Shown in pieces: positions 22,011 to 26,958 of a stretch of DNA of 32,000 nt. The notes under the pieces are model-generated. The model was not told the DNA's origin and did no database searches. It was given only the letters and a program-made list of their open reading frames with translations. The number at the start of each line of letters is the position of its first letter. The stretch's first letter is position 1. The DNA comes from an uncultured Bacilli bacterium (GTDB lineage: Bacteria > Bacillota_I > Bacilli_A > RF39 > UBA660). The DNA lies in the NCBI GenBank assembly GCA_947601485.1, contig CANQGF010000011.1, forward strand, positions 1 through 32,000. Direction: 5' to 3'. The translations under genes and the position numbers were made by a program.

Positions 22011-23134
22011 CTTTAGTTTTAATAACAGGTAAAATAAAGATAAGAAGAACAATATTGCAAATAGTTAGTGACATAAATTTAGAAGATTACAATCTAAAAA
22101 GTAAATTAATAGTACCTTTAGATGAATATTTAGGAATAGATAAACTACCATTTAAAGTATCAATAAGAGCAATGATAGAAATAGCATTTTGGGGACAAAA
22201 TCAACCATCATTTCAAAGAGCAAAAGAAATAATTAAAAGAGTTCATAATATAGATATATCTTATGTTACTGTTATGAATATCACTAAATTTATAGGAAAA
22301 ATAATTTTTGATTGTAACTATAATAAAGCTTTAAAAATGTGGAATAACCGGGCTAATATAGATATTAATAATGCTAATAAAAAAGGTACTTTATATATGC
22401 AATCAGATGGTGCAGCAGTTAATACTAGAATAGAAGATGAAAATGGCTCTACGTGGAGAGAAAATAAATTAGGAATACTATTTTCAGAATATGATTTATA
22501 TAAAAGAAAAAATAAAGCCAATCAAATCAATCATAAAGAATATGTGGCTTATGTGGGAAATGTTGAAACTTTTAGATTATTAATATTTGCTAAGGCAGTA
22601 GAACTAGAATATTGGAAATACGAAAATATAGTATTTATATCAGATGGAGCAACTTGGCTTAGAAATATGATAAGTGAACTATTTCCTGAAGCAATACAAA
22701 TATTAGATAAATATCATTTAATTGAAAATATATATGATTATGGTAAATTTATCTTTAATGAAGATATGAAAAAAGTAGAAAGATTTAAAGATAAAATAAT
22801 AGGATATTGTTATTCTAGAGAATATAAATTAATTGAAAAAGAATTAAAGAAATATAAAGATATAAAAGTACCAACAACTGTTTGTAACCTACCAACTTAT
22901 TTAAAGAATAATAAAGACAAAATAGATTATTCAACTTATGAACATAAAGGTTGGTTTGTAGGAAGTGGAGCCATAGAAAGTTCTAATAAAATAATAGTAC
23001 AACAAAGATTAAAACAAGCAGGTATGAGATGGAGTGTTGATGGTGCTAACTATTTAATAGTATTGAGATGTTATCAAGAAAGTGGACATTGGGGTGATAT
23101 AGAAAAAATAGTAGTTGACTATTTAAGCCAATAA
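21950..23134 (+). CDS. IS transposase, catalytic frame (orfB)
   Basis: Open in the -1 frame relative to orfA from 21950; its only good internal start is TTG at 22055 (359 residues), so expression probably relies on frameshifting. Catalytic DDE residues are visible: D in MQSDGAAVNTR, D in FISDGATWLRN, and E in VGSGAIESSNK. The last is followed by RLKQAGMRWSVDGANYLIV and LRC, typical of ISKra4 transposases. The DKYHLIEN helix after the second D fits the RNase-H fold. It cuts and joins the IS ends. The reading frame is otherwise undamaged, so the element may be active. Confidence 0.85.
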   Translation, partial: KKDYWNDKGIKIKNKGTETLTLVLITGKIKIRRTILQIVSDINLEDYNLKSKLIVPLDEYLGIDKLPFKVSIRAMIEIAFWGQNQPSFQRAKEIIKRVHNIDISYVTVMNITKFIGKIIFDCNYNKALKMWNNRANIDINNANKKGTLYMQSDGAAVNTRIEDENGSTWRENKLGILFSEYDLYKRKNKANQINHKEYVAYVGNVETFRLLIFAKAVELEYWKYENIVFISDGATWLRNMISELFPEAIQILDKYHLIENIYDYGKFIFNEDMKKVERFKDKIIGYCYSREYKLIEKELKKYKDIKVPTTVCNLPTYLKNNKDKIDYSTYEHKGWFVGSGAIESSNKIIVQQRLKQAGMRWSVDGANYLIVLRCYQESGHWGDIEKIVVDYLSQ

Positions 23135-23283: not shown

Positions 23284-24942
23284 TTATCCTAAAAAAGTTA
23301 TTTTAGCGTATCCGCTTCCAGTGTTACCTACCATTGTACCAGTTCCCTTATAATCAGGCATTGCTTTATTTCCAGCAATCATATTAGGTGCATAAAATAC
23401 TTTTCCACTATAATGAATAGCACTATCTAAATGTGTTATACTACTTGCGGTCGATGATCCGTTTATTGCTCTACATCCTGGGTAACCTGAAACAAATGAC
23501 GAACCACCACTACCACCACTATGGGCAACGGCTGCTCCAGCATAATAGCCTCCGCCTCCGCCTGACTGTCCAGCTAAGACATAGCCAAAATTACCTTGTT
23601 GAGCATATTTAGATCCATCATCTCCAGAATAATTGATATGCCAAACCCATTTGCCTCCCTCTGTTTGCGATGCTCCGTATGCCGTAGACCACCCATAGGC
23701 TTTTCCAGATGTAGGATGTGTATGTGTTTCATCATTTGATTCACCATCACCACCAACTAGAGCTCCTCCGTAACCCCCACTTCCAGCTCCAAAATACCAA
23801 TTTTCGTTCAAAAAATACGTATTTCGATTCCTATTATTGGCACCACCTCCACCGGCAGCAACCATTATTCGGGATTTCAATCCATCAAATGTTTTCCATT
23901 CACCAGACAAAAGCCTTATGTCAGTGGCTCCTCCACCCGTAGAACCATAATTATCTCCAATAGTGGGTCCTCCACCATTAAATTTCTCCTTTGATGATTC
24001 ACTACCAGATTCTCCAACATATACATAAATAGATTCATTTTTAGCAAGATGTATTATCCCTTCGGTATAAGCACCTTTACCACCATAATAGTCATTATAA
24101 TCACCACCGCTTGCTCCCCAAAGTTCAATTAAATAGTCACCATCTTTAGTTGGTGTAAATGTTTGAACACCACCAGTATACTTATATTCGTTAACCTCTT
24201 TTTCTACCTTTTCCCCTTGTTCTTCTATATTTGTTAATATCCCAAATATCTCTTTAAATTCTTTCCCTTGTGTACTATTATTAAAAGTATTTATTTCTAA
24301 ATTTTGATATATATTTCCTTCTTCATAATCTACCCATAAATATACTTTATATGTATTTGTGGTATTGCTTTTTATACTATCTACATCAAGCACATAATTA
24401 TTTCTTGTTTGATAACTACTTGTTAATGTATTTTTACTTAATGTATCATTAAGTAATGCATAAACGTTCCCTGAATTTATCCTATTTATATTATTTAAAA
24501 TACCACTATCTTTTAATACTTCTTCTTTTCCACTATTTATTTGTTTCATTACTTTAGTTTTTATTTGAAAATCTTTTATTTGACTAACAGTATTATTATT
24601 TGCTAATGTCGTCATGGTTAAGGTATATTTTATATCTTCTTGTCCTTCACCACATTTATTTGTAACTTTTACTTCAATAGGTTTAATTTTTTCCAAAGCT
24701 TTACTATCAGTTATTGGGTAATCATATGGTAATTCTAATTCACTACTAGATATACCTACATCTACACAATCTGTTTTACCACCAACTACTATTAAAGCTT
24801 CACTATGTAATTCATCATTTGCATTAAAAAAGGCATAGGCTATTCCCAAACTCGTTAATAGTAACATAATTATTGCTATTACATATATTTGAATTGGAAT
24901 TTTAATCTTAAATTCTTTCCCGAACAAAAATTTCTCGTCCAT
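23284..24942 (-). CDS. Membrane-tethered surface protein with ALK-like glycine-rich domain (copy A)
   Basis: 552 residues. A cytoplasmic basic stub (KEFKIKIP) leads into one membrane helix (about 17-37, ending GIAYAFFNANDE). That ending resembles the TasA/camelysin-type leaders cut by SipW-like signal peptidases. Residues about 40-230 are a beta-rich domain with a Cys pair (DCVDV and TNKCGEG). From about 255 comes a glycine-rich domain with FTPTKDGDYLIELWGASGG, YVYVGESG, GGGATDIRLL, RIMVAAGGGGA and GGSSFVSGYPGCRAI. This pattern is like the glycine-rich domain of ALK/LTK receptors and related bacterial surface proteins. There is no LPXTG or C-terminal anchor. The function is unknown, possibly adhesion or matrix. 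The gene has its own promoter and terminator; a paralogue lies immediately upstream at 25183-26859. Confidence 0.8.
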   Translation of the reverse strand: MDEKFLFGKEFKIKIPIQIYVIAIIMLLLTSLGIAYAFFNANDELHSEALIVVGGKTDCVDVGISSSELELPYDYPITDSKALEKIKPIEVKVTNKCGEGQEDIKYTLTMTTLANNNTVSQIKDFQIKTKVMKQINSGKEEVLKDSGILNNINRINSGNVYALLNDTLSKNTLTSSYQTRNNYVLDVDSIKSNTTNTYKVYLWVDYEEGNIYQNLEINTFNNSTQGKEFKEIFGILTNIEEQGEKVEKEVNEYKYTGGVQTFTPTKDGDYLIELWGASGGDYNDYYGGKGAYTEGIIHLAKNESIYVYVGESGSESSKEKFNGGGPTIGDNYGSTGGGATDIRLLSGEWKTFDGLKSRIMVAAGGGGANNRNRNTYFLNENWYFGAGSGGYGGALVGGDGESNDETHTHPTSGKAYGWSTAYGASQTEGGKWVWHINYSGDDGSKYAQQGNFGYVLAGQSGGGGGYYAGAAVAHSGGSGGSSFVSGYPGCRAINGSSTASSITHLDSAIHYSGKVFYAPNMIAGNKAMPDYKGTGTMVGNTGSGYAKITFLG

Positions 24943-24970
24943 AATTTGCCTCTTTCTATTTTTCTTTTTT

Positions 24971-24999
24971 ATTTTATCACGTTATTTATATTTTGAAAA
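24971..24999 (-). promoter_or_regulatory. Sigma-A-like promoter of glycine-rich gene A
   Basis: Minus-strand TTTTCA (24994-24999), 17-bp spacer, TAAAAT (24971-24976). About 75 bp from the start codon through and past the -35 are nearly identical to the region before copy B. Confidence 0.6.
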
Positions 25000-25101
25000 T
25001 GACTTTATAATCTATCAATATCTTTTGAAATATTACTTATTTTAAATTAATTTCTAGGTTGATGATTTTACACATTTCTTTTCTATAATTTTAAGCAATT
25101 T

Positions 25102-25139
25102 AAAAAGATAGAATTTTTCTATCTAATTTTCTATCTTTT
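25102..25139 (-). terminator. Terminator of glycine-rich gene B
   Basis: Minus-strand AAAAGATAGAA (25129-25139) and TTCTATCTTTT (25103-25113) form an 11-bp stem with a 15-nt loop, ending in a short T-run. It separates the two paralogues (the 240-bp gap otherwise holds only the promoter of copy A). Confidence 0.75.
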
Positions 25140-25182
25140 AAGAACTTAAAATTGTTTTTAAAAATCTACCTATTTTTATTAT

Positions 25183-26859
25183 TTATCCCATATATGTTAT
25201 TTTAGCATAGCCATTTCCTGTATTTCCAATCATAGTTTTTGTTCCATCATGAGTTGGCATTGGAGAATTGCCAGCAATCATACCAGGTGCAGCAAATACT
25301 TTTCCGCTATAATGAGTAGAACTATCCAAATGCGTTATACTATCAGCAGTTGAGGATGCACTTATTGCTCTACATCCAGGATATCCTGATATAAATGAAG
25401 AACCACCACCTGCACCACTCCAAGTACCACCGGGATGATTACCATGACCACCACCATAGTAACCACCGCCACCACCAGCTGAATCAGGTCCATTAACACT
25501 TGAATTGAATTTACCATATCCTCCACTACCAAATTTTCCTGTCATTTCAGGTAACACAGAAGGATCTACTCCACCAGTAAACAAAGTGCCAGGTTTTCCG
25601 CCAGCTGTTTGTGTTGCTCCATGTCCACTATAATCAAAACTACCATTACAGTAAAAATGAGCATCAATACCATTAAGGGCACCACCATCACCCCTAACAT
25701 CTTCAGCAGTAGCGACAGATCCTAAATAATAAACACCGCCACCGCCACCAGCAGCAACCATAATCCGTGATTTTAATCCATCAAAAATATTCCATTTTCC
25801 TGGCAAAAGTCTTACATCAGTAGCACCACCACCAGGTGTACTACCAGAGCCACCACCATTAAAGCTTAATCCATAACTAGCACATCCATCTTCACCATGT
25901 TGCATATTTTCACCTACATATACATAAAGTGATTCATTCTTTTTAAGGTAAATACTTCCAATCGTGTAAGCACCTCTACCATATGTATCTGGTCTATCAC
26001 TACTTCTACCATTAGTACCACTTGCGCCCCATAATTCAATTAAGTATTCACCATCTTTTGTCGGAGTAAATGTTTGATAATCTTCTTTATTTCCCGTATA
26101 TTCAAATTCAGTTACTTGGTTTTGAAAGGCTTCTCCATTTTCTTCTATATTTGTTAATATACTGAACATTCCTTTAAATTCTTTTCCTTGAGTACTATTA
26201 TTAAAAGTATTTATTCCCAAATCTGAGTATATATTTCCTTCTTCATAATCAACCCATAAATATACTTTATATGTATTAGTAGTATTTGTCGCTACTTCAT
26301 TAACATCTAATACATAATTATTTCTTACATCGTATTTACTTGTTGTTTCATTTTCATTATAAGCTTTATCTATTAATGCATAGACATTTCCCGAATTTAT
26401 TTTGTTTATTTTATTTAGTAAACCAGTATCTTTTATAACTGTTTCACTTCCATTATTTACTTTTCGTGTAACTTTTGCCTTTATTTGATAATCTTTTATA
26501 GGTATTTTGTCACTATTTGCTAATGTAGAAAATACTAATGAATATTTTATTGCTTGTTGTGCTTCTTTGCATTTATTTGTTACATTTATTTCAACTGGCT
26601 TTATATTTTGCAAAGCAAAGCTATCATTTATAGGATAATTATAAGATAATTCTATTTTACTACTTGATATATCTATATCTATACATTCTGTTTTGCCACC
26701 GACTACTGTTAAAGCTTCACTATTTAATTCATCATTTGCATTAAAAAAGGCATAAGTTATTCCTAAACTTGTTAATAATAACATAATTATTACTATTACG
26801 TATATTTGGATTGAAATTTTACTTTTTAATTTTTTCCCGAACAAAAATTTTTTGTCCAT
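25183..26859 (-). CDS. Membrane-tethered surface protein with ALK-like glycine-rich domain (copy B)
   Basis: 558 residues, same architecture as copy A: basic stub, membrane helix (about 17-37, ending GITYAFFNANDE), beta-rich domain with ECIDI and TNKCKEA cysteines, then the glycine-rich domain from about 255 (YQTFTPTKDGEYLIELWGAS, YVYVGEN, GGGATDVRLL, RIMVAAGGGGG, GGSSFISGYPGCRAI). The first 100 and last 75 residues are very similar to copy A, while the middle of the glycine-rich part differs in length and sequence. Gly codons are mostly GGT and GGA, in line with the AT-rich genome. No cell-wall sorting signal. It has its own promoter and terminator. The role at the cell surface is inferred. 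Confidence 0.8.
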   Translation of the reverse strand: MDKKFLFGKKLKSKISIQIYVIVIIMLLLTSLGITYAFFNANDELNSEALTVVGGKTECIDIDISSSKIELSYNYPINDSFALQNIKPVEINVTNKCKEAQQAIKYSLVFSTLANSDKIPIKDYQIKAKVTRKVNNGSETVIKDTGLLNKINKINSGNVYALIDKAYNENETTSKYDVRNNYVLDVNEVATNTTNTYKVYLWVDYEEGNIYSDLGINTFNNSTQGKEFKGMFSILTNIEENGEAFQNQVTEFEYTGNKEDYQTFTPTKDGEYLIELWGASGTNGRSSDRPDTYGRGAYTIGSIYLKKNESLYVYVGENMQHGEDGCASYGLSFNGGGSGSTPGGGATDVRLLPGKWNIFDGLKSRIMVAAGGGGGVYYLGSVATAEDVRGDGGALNGIDAHFYCNGSFDYSGHGATQTAGGKPGTLFTGGVDPSVLPEMTGKFGSGGYGKFNSSVNGPDSAGGGGGYYGGGHGNHPGGTWSGAGGGSSFISGYPGCRAISASSTADSITHLDSSTHYSGKVFAAPGMIAGNSPMPTHDGTKTMIGNTGNGYAKITYMG

Positions 26860-26887
26860 AATTTGCCTCTTTCTATTTTTCTTTTTT

Positions 26888-26916
26888 ATTTTATCACATT
26901 ATTTATATTTTGAAAA
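26888..26916 (-). promoter_or_regulatory. Sigma-A-like promoter of glycine-rich gene B
   Basis: Minus-strand TTTTCA (26911-26916), 17-bp spacer, TAAAAT (26888-26893); same elements and spacing as for copy A. Confidence 0.6.
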
Positions 26917-26958
26917 TGACTTTATAATCTATTAGTACTTTTTTCAGCTAAAGTTATT

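Follow-up and report, generated by a model that had tools for sequence, protein, structure and literature searches.

Two adjacent genes of an uncultured Bacilli bacterium encode ALK/LTK-type glycine-rich proteins with an apparently recombined core

The analysed window comprises the first 32,000 nucleotides of contig CANQGF010000011.1, from a 1.37 Mb assembly of 91 contigs (GCA_947601485.1) of an uncultured Bacilli bacterium. It contains two adjacent genes, both real open reading frames on the minus strand, located where a preliminary description of the sequence had placed them. Gene A (23284–24942) encodes a protein of 552 amino acids and gene B (25183–26859) one of 558 amino acids, with the same architecture: a membrane leader, a beta-sandwich and an ALK/LTK-type glycine-rich domain. 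By model secondary structure and sequence, the leader is a single helix at residues 17–46 of A (24805–24894) and 17–43 of B (26731–26811), ending in LGIAYAFF and LGITYAFF, respectively. It is followed by a beta-sandwich domain, assigned from structure matches, at residues 54–240 of A (24223–24783; middling matches only) and 53–240 of B (26140–26703). The glycine-rich domain, PF12810 by Pfam and structure, spans about residues 246–552 of A (23287–24207) and 245–558 of B (25186–26127). Identities, trees and searches delimit a core within it, at residues 368–460 of A (23563–23841), between the motifs VAAGGGG and GGGGGYY, and residues 375–461 of B (25477–25737).

The most conserved stretch that the two genes share lies outside the proteins. 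The 73 nt before both ATGs (24943–25015 for A and 26860–26932 for B) have a single mismatch (72/73 nt), and this block includes a ribosome-binding site and a promoter-like TTTTCA-17-TAAAAT arrangement, with the hexamers at 24999–24994 and 24976–24971 for A and at 26916–26911 and 26893–26888 for B. A 34-nt probe from the block found no further site in the genome within 3 mismatches.

The pair is located between rpsJ/rplC and a vanY-like gene, and its neighbours also include gpmI, a spo0A-like gene and pgk. An ISKra4/ISLre2-like transposase reading frame with a TTG start (22055–23134, plus strand) adjoins it; the match to the ISKra4 model is confined to the C-terminal two thirds, and the frame is perhaps a truncated insertion. 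The gpmI-vanY synteny is kept in three other genomes (G003, G006 and G017), where the next gene encodes another membrane protein, so that the site beside vanY is variable. This synteny comparison revealed no element boundary at the site of the pair. Inverted repeats around A and B are weak, with no sign of a DNA-inversion system, and an Rfam scan of the window found nothing.

Both glycine-rich domains exceed the curated cut-off (24.5 bits) of the Pfam family ALK_LTK_GRD (PF12810, the TG domain), with 162 and 145.9 bits (E-values of 3.2e-47 and 2.6e-42), covering positions 6–243 and 6–242 of the 243 in the profile. AlphaFold2 models of the two proteins, made from alignments of 48 and 44 sequences, reached mean pLDDT values of 81.0 and 80.2 and pTM values of 0.72 and 0.65. 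ALK/LTK structures were the sole strong PDB matches of these models (Foldseek E 1e-8 to 1e-9), with VIA-align Z scores of 16.1 for A and 15.7 for B, far above other folds, and a sequence profile of the family matches ALK in the PDB at E 1e-5. Sequence family and modelled fold together support a true ALK/LTK-type domain in both proteins, and bear out the resemblance to these receptors that the preliminary description had proposed. Unlike ALK and LTK, A and B are bacterial, give no kinase-domain match in a Pfam scan, have a bacterial leader and a beta-sandwich fused to the domain, and appear to have the core exchanged as a cassette.

The next-best folds were glycine-rich phage tips (Pam3 fibre, Z 7.7–9.9; Bxb1 tail tip, Z 7.6–9.5). 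In Pam3 gp24 and the T-even gp38-type tip of S16, a conserved glycine-rich stem bears a variable distal tip that is proposed to bind the receptor and set specificity (PMC9608196, PMC6851490). The core of A and B is positioned in both models between strands of the sandwich, in the glycine-rich part, after the strand at 358–369 and before the strands at 517–528, and by analogy with these adhesins it may be used as a distal binding tip. The likeness is one of fold and logic; the adhesins, unlike A and B, are phage proteins, and that of Pam3 is trimeric and chaperone-assembled. The shared fold could also be read as a sign that A and B are phage-derived tail-tip genes in a prophage. We consider this extremely unlikely, as both proteins have a membrane leader, the neighbours are the rpsJ/rplC, vanY-like, gpmI, spo0A-like and pgk genes, and none of 50,697 phage records was matched by tblastn with the low-complexity filter on. 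A tblastn search of plasmids gave no match, perhaps owing to the same kind of filter.

Aligned in windows of 60 columns, the A and B proteins do not diverge equally along their length but range from 26 to 82% identity. Identity is 82% at residues 1–60, 54–57% at residues 61–180, again 82% at residues 181–240 and 67–76% where the glycine-rich domain begins. It is only 26–40% across alignment columns 391–510, and 71–75% from there to the C-terminal end. By section, the identities in the glycine-rich domain are 0.64–0.66, 0.23–0.25 (the core) and 0.73. The preliminary description had reported a divergent centre between an almost constant start of ~100 residues and a nearly constant end of ~75 residues. 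The centre does collapse, to about 25% in the core; the constancy of the ends was overstated, being only moderate, with 82% at residues 1–60, about 55% in a second, less conserved stretch at 61–180 and about 73% in the last 75 residues. The dS between the genes has its minimum, 0.35, at residues 1–60 and is mostly 0.6–1.8 elsewhere, a hint of either strong constraint or recent gene conversion at the 5' end. Over most of the length synonymous sites approach saturation; the pair therefore does not reveal when or in which direction any exchange took place, and no breakpoint is visible at the DNA level.

We cut 54 glycine-rich domains from related genomes at VAAGGGG and GGGGGYY into flanks and core. 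The cores fall into a few internally conserved subtypes; the "variable" core of the preliminary description therefore stands in that A and B differ, and does not amount to random hypervariation. B has a type I core (RGDGG..NGIDAH..YSGHGATQT..GG.PG..M.GKFG.GGYG), also found in at least nine other genes (L009–L014, L045, L076, L077 and L088) and 0.47–0.57 identical to most of them. The type II core of A has an identity of 0.23 to that of B, compared with 0.42 to L075 and L085 and 0.39 to L057. A third type is found in L017, L041, L072, L073 and L080. When the flanks of A were used in a search, B was the top match; when its core was used, B ranked about 34th.

Trees of the two parts conflict. In the flank tree, A, B, L009 and L010 group together (99/99), the A–B pairing itself being weak, while in the core tree B falls inside type I (100/99) and A, on a long branch, among type II. 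Forcing A, B, L009 and L010 together in the core tree was rejected (p-AU 0.005), as was forcing A, L075 and L057 together in the flank tree (p-AU 0.0001), for clades that were chosen after the trees had been seen and a short, gap-rich core of about 90 columns. Constraining every type II row to a single clade was borderline (p = 0.066 for the core, 0.050 for the flanks). Such conflict is as expected from recombinational exchange of the tip-forming segment. By these comparisons, A apparently had its core, the tip of the fold, replaced by recombination, in keeping with the diversification by recombination suggested in the preliminary description. The conflict probably recurs beyond the pair: in genome G018, the cores of L074 and L075 are of type II and their flanks group with those of type I genes from the same genome (support of 80/82 in one tree; 93/91 in the other, for the L074–L075 pair only). 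Furthermore, in same-type, well-aligned pairs (L009/L010, L014/L077 and L014/L076) core dS tends to exceed flank dS, with flank/core/flank values of 0.44/1.08/0.46 for L009/L010, which is expected if flanks were homogenised or cores imported.

Could A and B instead be ordinary paralogues of one duplication, in which the loops diverged fast under weak constraint or positive selection and no recombination took place? Variation in such a fold is expected to be greatest at the tip (PMC9608196, PMC6851490), the core of A has a long branch, and dN between the A and B cores is about 1, in a region where the alignment of unlike cores is arbitrary and dN/dS is meaningless. This history is nevertheless unlikely in our view, because the A core shares more with type II cores of other genomes (0.42) than with that of B (0.23), the B core is still about 0.5 identical to the type I cores of other genomes, a single history is rejected by the AU tests, and the excess of core dS over flank dS in the three pairs is not predicted by amino-acid selection alone.

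Sister genes of A and B carry tracts of G8–10, either in the spacer between the −35 and −10 hexamers or early in the reading frame. Thirty-two of the 51 distinct tracts lie between the hexamers, compared with 7.5% of random anchors, at hexamer spacings of 15 nt (15 tracts), 16 nt (12), 17 nt (3) and 20 nt (2); one of these, the L010 tract, is also inside a reading frame. Tracts of the in-frame type are found in both reading states: in the assemblies, the upstream ATG is out of frame in L009, L010, L021 and L032 and in frame in L015. Of the 77 ORFs with a leader or a glycine-rich domain (74 once duplicate A/B entries are removed), 26 have a tract; the count for other ORFs is 6 of 112, and these six have the same leaders. 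The p value of 6e-7 is a guide only, since the presence of these genes was the criterion by which the loci were picked, and paralogues do not count as independent. This layout is that of slipped-strand phase variation, and the tracts look like on/off switches. In the Neisseria genes porA, fetA and opc, which encode phase-variable surface proteins, a homopolymer is likewise located in the promoter spacer (PMC2791445), and the sister genes have spacings mostly of 15–17 nt. Unlike in Neisseria, the tracts described here are in gut Bacilli, in the sister genes and not in A and B, and are known from sequence.

In the window, G/C runs stay below 6 nt and A/T runs below 9 nt. Just inside the frame, at the site of the G9 tract in L009 and L021, A has GGGAAAGAA (24913–24921, minus strand), which is no slippery tract, and B has GGGAAAAAA at the equivalent position (26830–26838, minus strand). 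Being tract-free, the two genes should be expressed steadily; phase variation is predicted for the wider family and not for A and B.

Elsewhere in the same genome (G000), about a dozen G8–10 tracts are present (loci L112–L135), mostly in the spacer or early frame of genes for secreted or surface proteins (C1:15687, C9:6293, C12:19392, C13:26031, C40:10013, C49:19, C51:8313, C59:6083 and C84:1195). They include the tracts of a four-gene family (MKNNYIKIS...), in which a single copy is in frame and the other three are out of frame. Two G9 tracts at C39:12310 and 12851 (L120) lie beside phage tail-fibre-like ORFs, which suggests a prophage carrying switchable tip genes of its own. In G058 (L040, L081 and L099–L102) the tracts have another context, TGCAACT-G8/9-TGCGATACA, which recurs upstream of many genes for glycine-rich proteins. 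It showed no sigma-A hexamers and is perhaps another type of promoter.

The leader end LGI(T/A)YAFF resembles SipW substrates by eye, and the preliminary description had likened the leader to those of SipW-processed matrix proteins (TasA/camelysin). A SipW-like ER-type peptidase is indeed encoded in the genome, on contig C60 (TIGR02228, 75.7 bits with a cut-off of 51.85), next to a DUF5305 protein and a 164-aa ORF that is TasA/camelysin-like by eye (Pfam M73 only 0.08). The TasA fibre (8aur) is among the best matches of the B beta domain (Z 7.6, a middling score, with 142 aligned residues and 12% identity); RbmA also appears among the structure matches of B. TasA is absent among the matches listed for the A model, and its match to B may reflect only a common arrangement of strands. 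SipW-signal, TasA and camelysin HMMs of Pfam and NCBIfam gave no match to A or B at E ≤ 1. A SipW-type leader is thus compatible with the peptidase gene and the fold match, and is not seconded by the HMMs; we infer that the peptidase may process the leader. A third leader-domain protein in this genome, with no glycine-rich domain, is encoded between obgE- and ruvA-like genes.

It is quite unlikely that A and B are TasA-like subunits of a biofilm matrix or fibre in which the glycine-rich part is structural. They share with TasA and camelysin the leader ending, a beta-sandwich and a peptidase gene in the genome, where a TasA-like ORF is also present, and the TasA and RbmA matches of B would fit such a role. 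Unlike TasA and camelysin, they have a C-terminal glycine-rich domain, no HMM match and a fold match that is middling for B and absent among the matches listed for A; the leader helix may stay as an anchor, and a recognition surface accounts better for discrete tip subtypes and G tracts.

PF12810 was found in 33 of 148 relatives, with up to 20 matches per genome, but a phylum-wide sample of 295 genomes had it in only 6. The nearest named relatives in a search with an alignment query were rabbit-gut uncultured Bacilli MAGs; there were also matches in rumen Bacilli and Segatella albensis. In some cases the domains are repeated in giant frames of 2,200–5,500 aa (L085 and L086 in G014, L092 and L093 in G075, and G056:C24). 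In others they are fused to type IV pilin-like leaders (GFTLIELL; L082–L084 in G063, L104 and L107), so the same tip is also borne by pilin-like proteins.

We favour the reading, with a probability of roughly 0.6, that A and B are exchangeable recognition proteins whose core was swapped by recombination, within a wider repertoire that is often switchable. As duplicated, membrane-anchored proteins they would be displayed at the cell surface, where the TasA-like beta-sandwich would lift the C-terminal ALK/LTK-type domain off the cell. In that domain the N- and C-flanking strands would build a sandwich, and the glycine-rich middle would build a lattice with distal loops. Binding has been proposed for these loops in phage tips, and may be their role in A and B as well. 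A would have a type II core on a frame that is sister to the type I frame of B, recombination having exchanged the core or homogenised the flanks, possibly by crossover in the flanking GGN-rich DNA. The tracts would make the repertoire of sister genes switchable around a steadily expressed A and B. The most likely role would be recognition, as adhesion to host glycan, mucin or other cells, and core exchange and switching could allow escape from phage or immunity, or a change of ligand. More tentatively, and with slightly less than even confidence, we propose an antigenic-variation system of gut Bacilli in which ALK-fold tips are swapped as cassettes between paralogues and single copies are switched by G tracts.

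Searches of the open-access literature found no paper on bacterial ALK_LTK_GRD proteins, nor an assigned role for them, and no paper on G-tract switching in these Bacilli; as far as these searches reached, a known kind of domain and a known kind of switch are combined here in an unreported way. If the tips are swapped and switched, these proteins are likely the face that uncultured gut Bacilli turn toward host, phage and neighbours, and the ALK/LTK domain would have a recognition logic in common with bacterial and phage adhesins.
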